From Verrucomicrobiaceae bacterium (GTDB lineage: Bacteria; Verrucomicrobiota; Verrucomicrobiia; Verrucomicrobiales; Verrucomicrobiaceae), in assembly GCA_016795485.1 (NCBI GenBank), contig JAEUHM010000004.1:1-64000 (forward strand): DNA of 64,000 nucleotides. Reading direction: 5' to 3'. Positions within the stretch are counted from its first letter, which is position 1, and each line of letters starts with the position of its first letter. The notes beneath the pieces are model-generated. The model was not told where the DNA came from, searched no databases, and saw nothing but the letters and a program-made list of their open reading frames with translations. Made by a program: the position numbers and the translations under genes. Positions 36,884 to 42,785 of this stretch are shown piece by piece.

Positions 36884-39070
36884 ATGTCCCTCATTCACAA
36901 TCAGTTCCAACATTTCTTGATCGCCCAACAGGCGGACGGGAGACCTGTGGAGTTGATCAGGTCGGCTGATGAAATCGCCTTTTTGGCGTTCGACACCAAG
37001 ATCAAGCGGTTGGTTGAGTTGCATGTTCTCAAACGAGGTCAGGCGATGGATGCTGTGGGTCGGCGTTCGGCGTTAGACCGCATTGAGCAGGCGCAAAGTC
37101 TTAGGGGCCTCAGTTTCATGCGAGTGCTGGAGCATGGAGAAGAGAACGGGGTCGTGTACTACTCTGCCAATTTGAATGATGGCGAAAGTGTAGAAGACTA
37201 TGTTTCACGTCGTGGTGCTGTGCCTGCCGTGACAGTTTTCTGCTTGATGCACCATTTCGTTGAAGACTTGGTGGCAGCAAAACGGTGTGACCGACTCTTG
37301 TCGCTGATGCGCGTTGGAACGCCGCTCGTAACCACTCATGAAGATGCCTTTCTTCAATTGAGGATCGTTGACTATGGGTTGTCTGGCAATGAGGCAATCA
37401 ATGATGATACCCGCACCAGGCGAGTGGTGGCCGAGTGTGGTCAATTGCTCTTCGTGCTACTCACTGGGCAGCCGTATGAAGGGCAAAATCCAGACAAATA
37501 TCCTGCTCTGACATGCTTGCCTACCAATTTAAGGATGCTTTTGCGCACCGCGTTGGTCGATCCAGACAATGTCTCACCAGTGTTAGAGAAACTGATGGAC
37601 GACATCCGAGAGGCCTATGCGTCTCTTGTTCCCAGCATTCAGGTGCGAACATCGAAGAAGCATCTGATCCTCAACGAAGCATTGCATCCCAAGTCCCATG
37701 TGCAGTCCTTGTTGCTGTCTGGAGTGGATGTCGCGGAACTCCTAAAGAGCCGCTATGAGATAGCCAGCGGAGAGGATTTCGTGCGCTATCCGTTTGCGAT
37801 TCCAGCAGTGCATCTTGCAGATCGGGCACCTGTGACAGTACATCTACTTCCGCCATCGCGAATAGCTGATAAGTCGCAGTATGAGACTGTGCCGCTCCAG
37901 ATGTGGAGGTTTAATCGGGAATCTCATCCCAACATTTTGCGCTCGCTGAGCTTGTGGGAGACTCCAGACTGGACGTTCCTAACAGAGGAAAGAGAGGGCG
38001 GATTCCCTTTGAGTCGCCTTCTCGCAGAGCGTGGAGTGCTCAATCCCACCGAGGTGTCTGTGGTGCTGCGGCAGGTGTGTGCTGCCCTCGATCAGGCTCA
38101 AGAGTGCGGAGTTACTCGGGTGGATATCCATCCTTCCAACTTAGTGTTCAAGGTGGGTCGTGAAGGAACGCCGACCGGGCGTGAGTATGACCGTCTGATG
38201 CAAAAGCGCTTGGATGCGTGGCCACCTTTCTTGCTGAAGGTAAGGACCCACTCCACTATGCGTGCTCTTTATGAGCCTTTGCTTGTAGAGCCTTCGGTTT
38301 CAGGCGAGGACCAGGAGTCCTTCCGAGCGCAAAAAGATTTCAGGAACCGATCTTTCGTGGCTTTGGCGGTGTACCTTCTCACTGGAGAGCGCCAAGTGGG
38401 AAGTGTGCCCGAGTTTGGCGAGGCCGTGCCGGATACATTGGCAGCTTTCTTGAAGGAAATGCTGTTGGCTGGTCGATATGAAGGCACGACACCGGTTCCA
38501 GCCGATTTTCTGAGTCAGTTTGAGTCGCACATGGTTGCCCCAAGTTCCGAAGGGAGAGGATTCGCTGCGATCCGAGCCATGGGAGACACTCCGGTGGAGG
38601 AGTTAGAGAGCGCTGGCTCGGTATCCGACTTTGATGAGGACTGGGCCAAGGTGGAACCTGCTGCCCCAAGCTACTTGAAAGCACGCACGGCACCTCTTGG
38701 ACTTGGGGTGAAGCCTATGCCCAAAGAGAAGCCCATGGACCGTGGGTCTTTGGGGATGATTCTCTGGGGAATTGGAGCTTCGGCGTTAGCGGTCATCGCC
38801 TTTTTGACGTTCTTTGGAGGGGGATCGCCCAATCAAGGCGTCTCTACGACTACGTCGGTGCCATCACCTGTCGTTAATCCCAACCAAACCAAAGACGGCA
38901 GCGGAGGATCGCCTGCTGTTCGCACCAAAACGCCAGAGGAGATAAAGAAGGCCATAGTACCGACCCAGGTGGAACTTCAGCGCCTCAAGCAAACACAAGA
39001 CACCGTGCAAAGTGCCGTTGGGCCAAGCAGTGGGATTGGCGGTGCGCCGGTGGCAACGGCTAGGCAATGA
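36884..39070 (+). CDS. Membrane-anchored tandem pseudokinase-like protein upstream of btubA
   Basis: 728 residues, with no signal peptide and one transmembrane helix at about 622-645 (MILWGIGASALAVIAFLTFF), so the long N-terminal part should be cytoplasmic. Domain 1 (about 10-250) resembles a Ser/Thr kinase: ELHVLK at 45-50 (VAxK Lys replaced by His47), IVDYGLSG with a DYG (163-165) in place of DFG, then LLFVLLTGQPYEG; no HRD is visible. Domain 2 (about 290-550) has VTVHLLPP (His320 again for Lys), HPNILRSL at 348-353, and VDIHPSNL (Asp414, Asn419) matching the catalytic-loop DxKPxN, but no DFG. The C-terminal tail is Ser/Pro/Thr-rich. It is co-directional with, and 134 bp from, btubA. Kinase activity is unlikely; a scaffold or membrane anchor is inference. 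Confidence 0.75.
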   Translation: MSLIHNQFQHFLIAQQADGRPVELIRSADEIAFLAFDTKIKRLVELHVLKRGQAMDAVGRRSALDRIEQAQSLRGLSFMRVLEHGEENGVVYYSANLNDGESVEDYVSRRGAVPAVTVFCLMHHFVEDLVAAKRCDRLLSLMRVGTPLVTTHEDAFLQLRIVDYGLSGNEAINDDTRTRRVVAECGQLLFVLLTGQPYEGQNPDKYPALTCLPTNLRMLLRTALVDPDNVSPVLEKLMDDIREAYASLVPSIQVRTSKKHLILNEALHPKSHVQSLLLSGVDVAELLKSRYEIASGEDFVRYPFAIPAVHLADRAPVTVHLLPPSRIADKSQYETVPLQMWRFNRESHPNILRSLSLWETPDWTFLTEEREGGFPLSRLLAERGVLNPTEVSVVLRQVCAALDQAQECGVTRVDIHPSNLVFKVGREGTPTGREYDRLMQKRLDAWPPFLLKVRTHSTMRALYEPLLVEPSVSGEDQESFRAQKDFRNRSFVALAVYLLTGERQVGSVPEFGEAVPDTLAAFLKEMLLAGRYEGTTPVPADFLSQFESHMVAPSSEGRGFAAIRAMGDTPVEELESAGSVSDFDEDWAKVEPAAPSYLKARTAPLGLGVKPMPKEKPMDRGSLGMILWGIGASALAVIAFLTFFGGGSPNQGVSTTTSVPSPVVNPNQTKDGSGGSPAVRTKTPEEIKKAIVPTQVELQRLKQTQDTVQSAVGPSSGIGGAPVATARQ

Positions 39071-39097
39071 TGGATAAGCTATTGATAATTGCTGCCG

Positions 39098-39113
39098 TGG
39101 CAAGCTCCTTGCA
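39098..39113 (+). promoter_or_regulatory. Sigma-54 (-24/-12) promoter upstream of btubA
   Basis: TGGCAAGCTCCTTGCA fits the RpoN consensus TGGCACRNNNNTTGCW with a single mismatch, including GG and GC exactly 10 bases apart. The predicted start is near 39124, giving a leader of about 80 bases to the btubA ATG at 39205. No sigma-70 promoter of comparable quality is seen in this gap. RpoN use requires an activator encoded elsewhere. Confidence 0.6.
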
Positions 39114-39194
39114 TTCCATGTAAAGGCTGCCAAAAACAACAGGACAATCACCCCCTCGCTAACTACTCAAAACACTCACTCAAGACAACTCATC

Positions 39195-39198
39195 GGAG
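39195..39198 (+). promoter_or_regulatory. Shine-Dalgarno of btubA
   Basis: GGAG six bases before the ATG at 39205. Most other genes in the window, including btubB, lack a clear Shine-Dalgarno, so this one stands out and supports the chosen start. Confidence 0.5.
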
Positions 39199-39204
39199 CG
39201 GCAC

Positions 39205-40641
39205 ATGAAGGTCAACAATTGCATCGTGGTATCAGTCGGTCAGGCAGGCAATCAGATTGCAGCCTCATTTTGGAAAACGATCTGCCTGGAGCACGGGATT
39301 GATCCCCTAACAGGACAGACTGCAGGAGGAGCAGAACCGAAAGGCAATTGGAGTGCGTTCTTTTCGCGATTGGGCGAGTCAAGCGGCAGTAGCTACGTCC
39401 CGCGAGCTGTCATGGTGGACCTTGAGCCTTCAGTTATCGACAATGTAAAAGCTGGCTCAGGTTCTTTGTTCAACCCTGCCAACTTGATCGCTAGGTCTGA
39501 AGGCTCAGGAGGAAACTTTGCGGTAGGTTACCTTGGGGAAGGGCGGACGGTTCTCCCCGAGATCATGAATCGTCTGAACACTGAGATCGACAAGTGTGAC
39601 AACGTCGGTGGCATCATCGTTCTCCACTCGACGGGTGGTGGAACAGGCTCTGGTTTGGGCTCCCTCATCATCGAGAGCCTCAAGGAGCGCTATCCCGAGC
39701 ACCCGATTCTCTCTTGTGCGATCCTTCCGTCTCCTCAGGTCTCATCCGTTGTTACAGAGCCATACAATACCGTCTTTGCCCTGAACACACTTCGGCGGAC
39801 TGCGGATGCCTGCCTTATTTTTGATAATGAGGCGCTGTTTGAACTCGCCCATCGGAAGTGGAACATCGACAGCCCTTCGGTGGATGATCTCAACCTTCTC
39901 ATCACCGAGGCGCTAGCGGGTCTCACGGCTTCCATGCGTTTCAGCGGGTTCCTGACCGTAGAGATCAGTCTTCGTGAGATGCTTACCAATCTCGTTCCTC
40001 AGCCGTCCCTGCACTTCTTGATGCTGTCGTTTGCTCCGTTAACTCCACCAGATCGCAGTAAGTTCGAGGAGATGGGCATTGAAGAGATGATTCGCTCTCT
40101 GTTCCAGAATGAGTCCGTCTTTGCTGCGTGCCATCCAATGGAAGGACGATTCCTATCCACGGCGGTCCTTTATCGGGGAATCATGGAAGACAAGCCGCAA
40201 GCGGATGCCGCGCTAGCAGCCATGCGCGAGCAACTCCCCCTGACTTATTGGATACCAACGGCATTCAAGATCGGTTACGTGGAGCAGTCTGGCATGGCGC
40301 ACCGCAAGAGTATGGTGTTGCTCTCCAATAACACTGAAGTTGCTCGTGTTCTTGACCGGATCGCAGCCAACTTCGACAAACTTTGGCAGCGGAAGGCATT
40401 CGCCAACTGGTATCTTAACGAAGGCATGTCAGAGGAGCAGATCAATGCCTTGCGTGCTTCAGCTCAAGAGCTCATCCAAAGTTACCAAGTGGCAGAGGAA
40501 AGTGGTGCCAAGGCAAAGGTTCAGGATGACCCAAGTGTGGCAGCGCGGGCGGGCACTGGATTGCCTCCTGCGGCTGCATCTGATGAGCCGAAGACAGGTT
40601 CACTAAGCCTCCGTGATCTCGTCGACCGCCGCAAAGCCTAA
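39205..40641 (+). CDS. btubA: Bacterial tubulin A
   Basis: 478 residues, a true tubulin rather than FtsZ. The N terminus carries VSVGQAGNQIAASFW (tubulin GQxGNQI, T1 loop), the tubulin signature STGGGTGSGLGSL is at residues 142-153 (GTP phosphate-binding T4 loop), and the C-terminal helices include NWYLNEGMSEEQI, as in eukaryotic tubulins. BtubA pairs with BtubB into heterodimers that polymerise into bacterial microtubules, known from Prosthecobacter. The C-terminal tail is short (about 40 residues after the core, RDLVDRRKA), not an acidic eukaryotic tail. 35 bp separate it from btubB. Confidence 0.97.
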   Translation: MKVNNCIVVSVGQAGNQIAASFWKTICLEHGIDPLTGQTAGGAEPKGNWSAFFSRLGESSGSSYVPRAVMVDLEPSVIDNVKAGSGSLFNPANLIARSEGSGGNFAVGYLGEGRTVLPEIMNRLNTEIDKCDNVGGIIVLHSTGGGTGSGLGSLIIESLKERYPEHPILSCAILPSPQVSSVVTEPYNTVFALNTLRRTADACLIFDNEALFELAHRKWNIDSPSVDDLNLLITEALAGLTASMRFSGFLTVEISLREMLTNLVPQPSLHFLMLSFAPLTPPDRSKFEEMGIEEMIRSLFQNESVFAACHPMEGRFLSTAVLYRGIMEDKPQADAALAAMREQLPLTYWIPTAFKIGYVEQSGMAHRKSMVLLSNNTEVARVLDRIAANFDKLWQRKAFANWYLNEGMSEEQINALRASAQELIQSYQVAEESGAKAKVQDDPSVAARAGTGLPPAAASDEPKTGSLSLRDLVDRRKA

Positions 40642-40676: not shown

Positions 40677-41951
40677 ATGAGAGAAATCGTCAGCATTCAC
40701 GTCGGCCAGTGCGGAAACCAAATTGCAGACCGTTATTGGCGGCTGATCTTGCGAGAGCATGGTTTGGATGACAGCGGAGTGCCCAAGCAGGGCTCAAATG
40801 TCGCAAGCAATGCCAATATGGAAGTCTTCTTCACGAAGATTCGGGAAGGAAAGTACACTCCGCGAGCAGTCCTTGTGGACCTAGAGCCTGGCGTGATTGC
40901 CAGGATTGAGAAAGGCGAGATGTCCCAGCTTTTCGATGAAGGCTCCATCATTCGCAAGATCCCTGGTGCAGCCAATAACTGGGCACGTGGCTATCACGTG
41001 GAAGGTGAACGTGTGATCGACCAGATCATGAACGTCATTGATGCTGCCGTTGAGAAGACCAAGGCGCTTCAGGGCTTTCTGCTGACTCATTCAATCGGTG
41101 GCGGTTCCGGTTCTGGCCTTGGTTCGCTCATTCTTGAGCGTCTTCGTCAGGCCTATCCCAAAAAGAAGATCTTCACGTTTTCGGTGGCACCGTCACCTGT
41201 CATCTCTGATGCAGCTGTGGAGCCGTACAATGCCATTTTGACGCTTCAGCGAATCAAAGACAATGCTGACGCGGCTGTCATCTTGGATAACGAGGCGCTG
41301 TTCCGTATTGCCAAGAGCAAGCTGCATCGCGCACCCAACTACATGGACTTGAACCACATCGTGGGCTTGATCATGTCCAGCGTCACGGCGTCTCTGCGTT
41401 TTCCGGGCAAGCTTAACACGGATCTGGGCGAGTTTGTTACCAATCTCGTTCCGTTCCCAGGCAATCACTTTCTGACCGCGTCTTTTGCGCCTATGCGTGC
41501 CGCAGGGGCCGAGGGACAAGTGCGGATGCCATTCCCAGATCTGGCTCGTGAGACTTTTGCCCAAGACAATTTCACGGCTGCTATCGACTGGCAGAATGGC
41601 GCTTACCTTTCTGCTTGTGCGTTGTTCCGTGGTGATGTGAAAGCCAAAGAAGTAGAAGAGAACATGGCGGCTATCCGCAAGAGCCTCAACTTCGTGACTT
41701 ACATTCCAACCGGGGTGAAGATCGGTGTGGCTGAGACTGCCCCAGAAGGCTTTGCATCGTCAGGGCTTGCCTTGGTCAATCACACAGGCATTGCTGCTGT
41801 CTTTGAGCGACTGATTAGCAACTTCAACATCATGTTCGACAACCACGCCTACACCCACTGGTATGAGAGTGCCGGAGTATCGCGCGACATGATGGCGGAA
41901 GCTCGTGATTGCGTTACGGAACTCGCCAAGAGCTACCGGGACGCGACCTAG
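40677..41951 (+). CDS. btubB: Bacterial tubulin B
   Basis: 424 residues. It opens MREIVSIHVGQCGNQIADRYW, strikingly like eukaryotic beta-tubulin (MREIVxIQxGQCGNQIG). The signature is GGGSGSGLGS at 141-150 (Ser in place of the usual Thr). The T7-loop region reads LNTDLGEFVTNLVP, so the alpha-tubulin-like acidic residue is retained. The C terminus ends shortly after the HWYESAG segment, with no acidic tail. BtubB forms the heterodimer and filament with BtubA. No Shine-Dalgarno is seen; translation may rely on the btubA transcript. Confidence 0.97.
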   Translation: MREIVSIHVGQCGNQIADRYWRLILREHGLDDSGVPKQGSNVASNANMEVFFTKIREGKYTPRAVLVDLEPGVIARIEKGEMSQLFDEGSIIRKIPGAANNWARGYHVEGERVIDQIMNVIDAAVEKTKALQGFLLTHSIGGGSGSGLGSLILERLRQAYPKKKIFTFSVAPSPVISDAAVEPYNAILTLQRIKDNADAAVILDNEALFRIAKSKLHRAPNYMDLNHIVGLIMSSVTASLRFPGKLNTDLGEFVTNLVPFPGNHFLTASFAPMRAAGAEGQVRMPFPDLARETFAQDNFTAAIDWQNGAYLSACALFRGDVKAKEVEENMAAIRKSLNFVTYIPTGVKIGVAETAPEGFASSGLALVNHTGIAAVFERLISNFNIMFDNHAYTHWYESAGVSRDMMAEARDCVTELAKSYRDAT

Positions 41952-41976: not shown

Positions 41977-42747
41977 ATGGACCAGACTCTCGACAAGCAG
42001 CTTGCCTCCGCTACCCGTAGCGTGGAGGAGGCACGACGGTTGGCGTATCGCGATCCATCCCGAGTTGGTGATCTTGTGGAGCAGATTTCGGTGCTTGCAG
42101 ACCTTCGTCAGAAGGAAGGAGATTTCCGCAAGGCTGAGTCGCTGTATCGGGAGGCGCTATTTAGAGTCCAAGACCTTAAAAAGCCTGACTCGAGCCTGAC
42201 GGCAGGCATCTACTCACTGCTGGCGTACCTCTACGATCGCTGGGGTAAGATGGACTTGGCCGCTCAATACTATGAAAAGGCGTTGAAGCTCTCTGAGTCC
42301 GATGATGTTACCGACCCTGACAAGTCGGCGACCATCAAAAACAATTTGGCGATGATCTTCAAAAACTTGAAGAACACTCAGAAAGCGGAGCAGTATTATC
42401 ATGAAGCGCTTGAGGGCTTCACCAAGTTGTATGGCGAAAACCACAGCAAAGTGGCAGCTGTGTACAACAATCTTGGAGTGCTCTACTACGCCGGAATGGA
42501 TATCGAGCGAGCCCAGAAGGTCCATGAACGTGCGCTGGAGATCAGGCAGAATCTCACATCGGGAGAGGTTGATCCTGGAGACTTGAGTCAGACGTACATT
42601 AACCTTGGAGCAGTTTACAAAGCCCTGGGCAACTTCCAGCAAGCTGAAGAGTGTGTAACCAAGGCCAAGCGTCTGCGTGCAGAGCAGAGTGGCTACGTGC
42701 CAGCCCCCCGTAGATCTGCTAGTTTGCTTCAAGACAAGACAGCCTAA
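41977..42747 (+). CDS. bklc: Bacterial kinesin light chain-like TPR protein
   Basis: 256 residues from ATG 41977, 25 bp after btubB; an upstream ATG at 41905 would overlap btubB and is not preferred. At least four tetratricopeptide repeats of the kinesin-light-chain type are visible: GDFRKAESLYREALFRV, GKMDLAAQYYEKALKL, KNTQKAEQYYHEALEGF, DIERAQKVHERALEI and NFQQAEECVTKAKRL. The TPR array suggests a protein-binding partner of the tubulin filaments; Bklc is established as the third gene of Prosthecobacter tubulin operons. No motor domain is present, so no kinesin heavy-chain function is implied. Confidence 0.95.
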   Translation: MDQTLDKQLASATRSVEEARRLAYRDPSRVGDLVEQISVLADLRQKEGDFRKAESLYREALFRVQDLKKPDSSLTAGIYSLLAYLYDRWGKMDLAAQYYEKALKLSESDDVTDPDKSATIKNNLAMIFKNLKNTQKAEQYYHEALEGFTKLYGENHSKVAAVYNNLGVLYYAGMDIERAQKVHERALEIRQNLTSGEVDPGDLSQTYINLGAVYKALGNFQQAEECVTKAKRLRAEQSGYVPAPRRSASLLQDKTA

Positions 42748-42785
42748 CGATTGCTAGTCTTGGGCGGCTCGCTTTTTGAGCGTTT

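Follow-up and report, generated by a model that had tools for sequence, protein, structure and literature searches.

Bacterial tubulins have so far been described as a three-gene system in which Bklc is the sole accessory protein. What, then, is the open reading frame directly upstream of btubA in the Verrucomicrobiaceae contig JAEUHM010000004.1, and does it belong to the tubulin system? The window analyzed here is the whole stretch of 64,000 nucleotides from the start of this contig, and its tubulin locus reads as follows:

36884..39070, + strand: pk, a tandem pseudokinase with a single transmembrane (TM) helix, 728 aa (ORF, ortholog alignment, structure model)
39071..39204, + strand: pk-btubA intergenic gap, with a weak promoter-like match at 39061-39089
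39205..40641, + strand: btubA (ORF and homology)
40677..41951, + strand: btubB (ORF and homology)
41977..42747, + strand: bklc (BtubC), a TPR protein (match to solved Bklc 5o01/5o09, E 1.9e-112)
42767..42781, + strand: weak terminator-like hairpin 3′ of bklc, such hits being near the chance number in this region

The pk ORF (36884-39070, + strand) is intact, encodes 728 aa and begins with an ATG whose position is common to the aligned orthologs. Its stop codon lies 134 bp from the btubA start at 39205 on the same strand, with btubB and bklc next, and the ORF coordinates thus confirm the spacing given in a preliminary description of this DNA. The encoded protein (PK) divides into these parts:

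36887..37633, + strand: pseudokinase domain 1, residues 2-250, with the H47 codon at 37022-37024 (AlphaFold2, profile, PDB comparison)
37739..38533, + strand: pseudokinase domain 2, residues 286-550, with the H320 codon at 37841-37843 (sub-threshold Pfam match, AlphaFold2, profile, PDB comparison)
38753..38815, + strand: predicted TM helix, residues 624-644, its positive side facing the kinase domains
38942..38974, + strand: C-terminal tail motif IKKAIVPTQVE after a Pro-rich linker, predicted to be periplasmic (ortholog alignment)

Pfam returned Pkinase alone, below threshold (E 9e-7, 29 bits versus a cut-off of 31.7, residues 334-423). When PK was aligned by hhalign to a profile of six true kinases from the same genome, domain 1 scored E 5e-12 and domain 2 E 1e-13. 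An AlphaFold2 model built from 26 natural sequences (pLDDT 78 overall, mostly 80-96 within the domains) contains two kinase folds (2-250 and 286-550), a disordered linker (554-621, pLDDT < 50) and the TM helix at 624-644. In the PDB comparison, domain 1 matched PknB and PknA with Z 19-20 (PknB Z 19.6 over residues 4-246) and domain 2 matched Pim1 with Z 18.1. By structural score and by hhalign, both domains therefore have the kinase fold that had been proposed for them.

The preliminary description had also reported His in place of the VAxK lysine in both domains, a DYG without HRD in domain 1 and a VDIHPSN loop without DFG in domain 2, and sequence and profile alignment agree on these points. 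H47 and H320 align opposite the VAIK lysine of the true kinases from the same genome; H47 is invariant in 16 and in 26 aligned orthologs, and H320 is kept in at least 90% of the 26, with Gln in Verrucomicrobium. Domain 1 has D163-Y164-G165 and lacks the HRD loop, while domain 2 has R-V-D-I-H-P-S-N at 412-419, which keeps Asp414 and Asn419, and lacks DFG. An active Hanks-type Ser/Thr kinase has the VAIK lysine in beta-3 as well as the HRD Asp and the DFG Asp within one domain; PK carries H47 and H320 instead of the lysine, and neither of its domains has both Asp residues. PK might still retain weak or unusual catalysis despite the His, as some displaced-lysine kinases do: domain 1 has its DYG, domain 2 has Asp414 and Asn419, and the invariance of H47 indicates a position under selection. 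We consider this highly improbable, as the full catalytic set is found in neither domain, the domain 2 Asp is replaced by Glu in one ortholog (L075) and the loop is degenerate in another (G177). PK is thus most probably a catalytically dead double kinase-fold protein with a predicted TM helix, and the loss of its catalytic residues makes a scaffold more likely than an enzyme.

The proposal of a single TM helix held for the window protein and did not extend to every ortholog: none is predicted in the btubA-adjoining pk ortholog of a second family (f3; see below), and Verrucomicrobium PK has a weak C-terminal hydrophobic stretch instead of a clear TM helix. Since a pk that adjoins btubA can lack the helix, membrane anchoring is not universal. 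Most orthologs of the family carry the tail motif in the form I[RK]KAIxPTxEE. The tandem pseudokinase also has two more groups of paralogs (G000:C6:29205-30527, L002, ORF 511-2838; and L108-L110): one is represented in most family genomes, and eight genomes of the Prosthecobacter clade have the other (~940-980 aa).

How closely pk follows the tubulins was scored in 68 genomes of the family. Orthologs of pk were present in 47/68 and btubA in 42/68; 39 genomes had both, 8 pk only, 3 btub only and 18 neither. Two of the three btub-only genomes are incomplete or fragmented, and the third, G018 (99% complete), has btub and no pk. Of the 39 genomes that have both genes, at least 25 place pk directly 5′ of btubA on the same strand, and six genera (g1, that of the window, g3, g4, g5, g6 and g8, Prosthecobacter) retain the order pk-btubA-btubB-bklc, so that the position of pk 5′ of btubA is conserved across genera. 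The block has at least 7 different upstream and at least 9 different downstream neighbors; thus, the four genes are kept together while their flanks turn over. Directly 5′ of pk, on the same strand, g4 and one Prosthecobacter clade encode a protein of ~500 aa (L118 4208-5749, L072 10002-11474 and orthologs), which is possibly a fifth cassette member; Pfam gave no match for it, and one possible TM helix was seen by eye.

Linkage with btubA had been expected in all tubulin-bearing Prosthecobacter. It was found in the six genera and in f3, and it failed for one whole Prosthecobacter clade, in which the pk tree places every pk away from btub (the other family branches with both genes are linked), and for G018. 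The companion expectation, that tubulin-lacking relatives have no pk, proved wrong: Verrucomicrobium and five Prosthecobacter-clade genomes keep pk without intact tubulins. Among the 68 family genomes, presence of pk and presence of tubulins do not coincide strictly, and on independent pairs their co-occurrence was not significant (7 pairs, median p 0.125). Four genomes of the unlinked clade (G014, G015, G028 and G054) have kept pk and lost btub and bklc, with the linker motif described below intact in some.

The genomes of best quality fall in the unlinked clade, as does one (G013) with two divergent btubAB-bklc operons (L092 and L093), neither adjoining pk. Two btub operons have been described for P. 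debontii. Given the genome quality and the two operons of G013, the cultured Prosthecobacter species on which the btub operon was defined probably lie in this clade, and pk may have been overlooked because those species seem to have pk and btub apart. A literature search joining Prosthecobacter, tubulin and pseudokinase found no account of pk (Pilhofer 2007, on the flanks of the cultured btub operons, lay outside that search). Upstream of btubA, the unlinked clade has a conserved TTGGGATCATTCTTGCTA / CGGGAACAATTCTTGCG (L091, L092, L094-L097, L099, L104, L106 and L107), whose GG-N10-GC pattern resembles a sigma-54 promoter.

The linked Prosthecobacter clade conserves a sigma-70-like element, TTGGAC-N17-GGTAAAA, in the pk-btubA gap, so btubAB-bklc need not share a transcript with pk. 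No terminator-like site was seen on the + strand of the gap (39071..39204) in the window. Small ORFs of 80-107 aa between the two genes lack conservation, and we did not accept them as genes.

These observations bear on a reading that we regard as quite possible, namely that PK is a general envelope or signaling pseudokinase of the Verrucomicrobiales that sits at an ancestral btub locus, its linkage inherited and non-functional. It would account for (i) a larger tandem kinase-fold family with paralogs in most family genomes, (ii) the survival of pk in four Prosthecobacter-clade genomes that lost btub and bklc and its separation from btub throughout one clade, (iii) the promoter-like element that separates pk from btubA and (iv) a co-occurrence that loses significance once corrected for phylogeny. 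It fits less well with a four-gene block that outlives flank changes across six genera and is seen again in a second family, or with a pk that still adjoins bklc in Verrucomicrobium after tubulin loss.

The second family emerged from an order-wide search of 386 genomes. A 2023 survey describes bacterial tubulins as restricted to Prosthecobacter (PMC9871819). Among the 386, bacterial tubulins outside the window's family occur in f3 only, leaving aside G349, whose "tubulins" (L166, L167) look like eukaryotic alpha-tubulin contamination (one of the two scores 982 bits to an algal alpha-tubulin); surveys of tubulins could be misled by this bin, a public Verrucomicrobiales genome. Sampling across the phylum gave no btubB and no full-length pk outside this order. 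In the f3 genome G177, one contig carries tub3-pk-btubA and another has btubB-bklc at its end; this gene order is present in decayed form in G100, and G203 has btubAB-bklc without pk upstream. An apparent BtubA-BtubB fusion in G203 was rejected, since a run of N joins two ORFs. The gene tub3 is a third bacterial tubulin (L160 3473-4951, − strand, in G177; L162 11535-12806, − strand, in G100), with a Pfam Tubulin match of E 4e-40, 71% identity between the two species, 31-33% identity to BtubA and 23-26% to BtubB. It lies directly 5′ of pk in f3, and an HTH gene lies upstream of it.

The tubulins of f3 and of the window's family share 65-70% identity and their PK proteins about 26-30%. In the pk tree, the btubA-adjoining pk of G177 groups with the f3 pk genes, outside the window's family, which rejects the idea that f3 recently acquired pk with the cassette from the window's family. 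Therefore, the association of pk with btub is either old or was built twice. Taken with its distribution in the window's family, pk is an ancestral, recurrent, non-obligatory neighbor of the bacterial tubulin genes.

In three Verrucomicrobium genomes (including BvORR034 and BvORR106), pk is followed directly by a TPR gene, and searches of these genomes for btubA and btubB gave no hit. The TPR gene is a Bklc ortholog (support 99/99 for f1 plus g11 Bklc). That it might instead be a widespread TPR paralog, of which a separate copy exists in the G067 genome, was rejected (AU p 0.014). Placement inside versus beside the Bklc of the Prosthecobacter family gave AU p 0.27. In the Ffh tree, Verrucomicrobium falls with G010, which carries the full cassette, and for this reason it is most parsimonious that btubAB once lay between pk and bklc and was lost. 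A recent parallel is the Prosthecobacter-clade genome G042, which keeps pk and bklc, with btubA gone and btubB in pieces. In G048 (L170 5700-8190), pk, btubA and btubB are cleanly lost, and 172 bp now separate the upstream F6 gene from an intact bklc; here the filament genes have been deleted naturally and bklc spared.

The tubulin-free pair makes Bklc, a known tether between Btub and membranes, the likely partner of PK; the strongest partner signal of pk is Bklc rather than tubulin. It also bears on the suggestion that PK regulates Btub assembly or expression, for instance by acting allosterically on an active Ser/Thr kinase encoded elsewhere in the genome, with no anchoring function. Pseudokinases frequently serve as allosteric partners, several active-looking Hanks kinases are encoded in the genome, and the btubA-adjoining f3 ortholog has no TM helix. 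Still, the loci that were read showed no kinase gene in linkage with pk, and pk-bklc pairing without tubulin suggests a role on the tether side, so that we think a purely regulatory PK improbable.

A candidate site for contact with Bklc or Btub lies in the disordered linker of PK:

38603..38644, + strand: conserved short motif ESAGSVSDFDEDW, residues about 574-587, in the juxtamembrane linker (conservation, pLDDT)
peptide of this motif: ESAGSVSDFDEDWAK, with aromatic positions F583 and W587

The linker consensus ESxGSVSDFDxDW has a conservation of 0.82, compared with 0.54 and 0.33 in its flanks; the linker varies freely outside the motif, which occurs in nearly all family pk orthologs, Verrucomicrobium included, and is absent from the pk paralogs by sequence comparison. 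Bklc binds both Btub filaments and membranes, and purified Bklc attaches to membranes without PK (PMC5372463). Kinesin light chain (KLC) TPR domains bind W- and Y-acidic peptides in the TPR groove (PMC6214655), and the TPR domain of the window Bklc matches kinesin light chains. The conserved motif, the binding properties of Bklc and its KLC-type TPR groove together led us to propose PK as a receptor for the Bklc/Btub complex.

From this we infer the following arrangement. Both kinase folds would face the cytoplasm, as the predicted topology suggests; the aromatic-acidic linker motif might be held by the KLC-like TPR groove of Bklc, or by Btub; and the TM helix and Pro-rich tail could anchor the Btub/Bklc complex at the inner membrane, possibly reaching the periplasm. 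PK may thus serve as the membrane receptor of the complex. We give a probability of roughly 45% to the reading that pk encodes a dead, membrane-anchored scaffold and is the fourth ancestral member of a pk-btubA-btubB-bklc locus. Given the six-genus linkage, the second family and the pairing with bklc, we see in PK a likely scaffold partner that earlier descriptions of the bacterial microtubule system missed. Against the scaffold stand membrane binding by Bklc alone, pk without btub or bklc, btub without pk, the null independent-pairs test, the promoter-like element and an f3 PK without a TM helix. A stronger version, in which PK would be a dedicated membrane receptor for bacterial microtubules, a tandem pseudokinase whose aromatic-acidic motif is read by the KLC-like protein, the pair outliving the tubulins in Verrucomicrobium, seems doubtful to us; if true, it would be a bacterial analogue of KLC-cargo recognition. 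With a fourth gene at the locus across genera, and with pk and bklc paired in tubulin-free Verrucomicrobium, there is a concrete candidate for the means by which Btub filaments reach their place at the membrane. The pairing also indicates that the accessory proteins do something in their own right, and Verrucomicrobium allows them to be studied without tubulins.

Among known systems, the closest is the BtubABC operon of Prosthecobacter, with which the window shares the order and orientation of btubA-btubB-bklc and a Bklc close to 5o01/5o09; the window locus differs in adding a fourth, upstream gene, pk. The Hanks kinases PknB and PknA share the fold of PK (Z 19-20), whereas PK has two domains, His for both catalytic lysines, HRD or DFG missing and no PASTA domain. 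Mycobacterial Rv3910/MviN is likewise a membrane-linked bacterial pseudokinase and matches PK domain 1 (Z 17.9). In Rv3910, one pseudokinase domain is fused to a MurJ-type multi-TM protein; PK, with two domains and one predicted TM helix, is not of this type. Finally, the W-/Y-acidic cargo motifs of KLC (SKIP, calsyntenin, JIP1) resemble PK in presenting a short aromatic-acidic motif in a disordered linker, and a KLC-like TPR protein is encoded beside PK. The candidate core in PK differs in being F-acidic, SDF[DE], with the W present in many orthologs and not in all.
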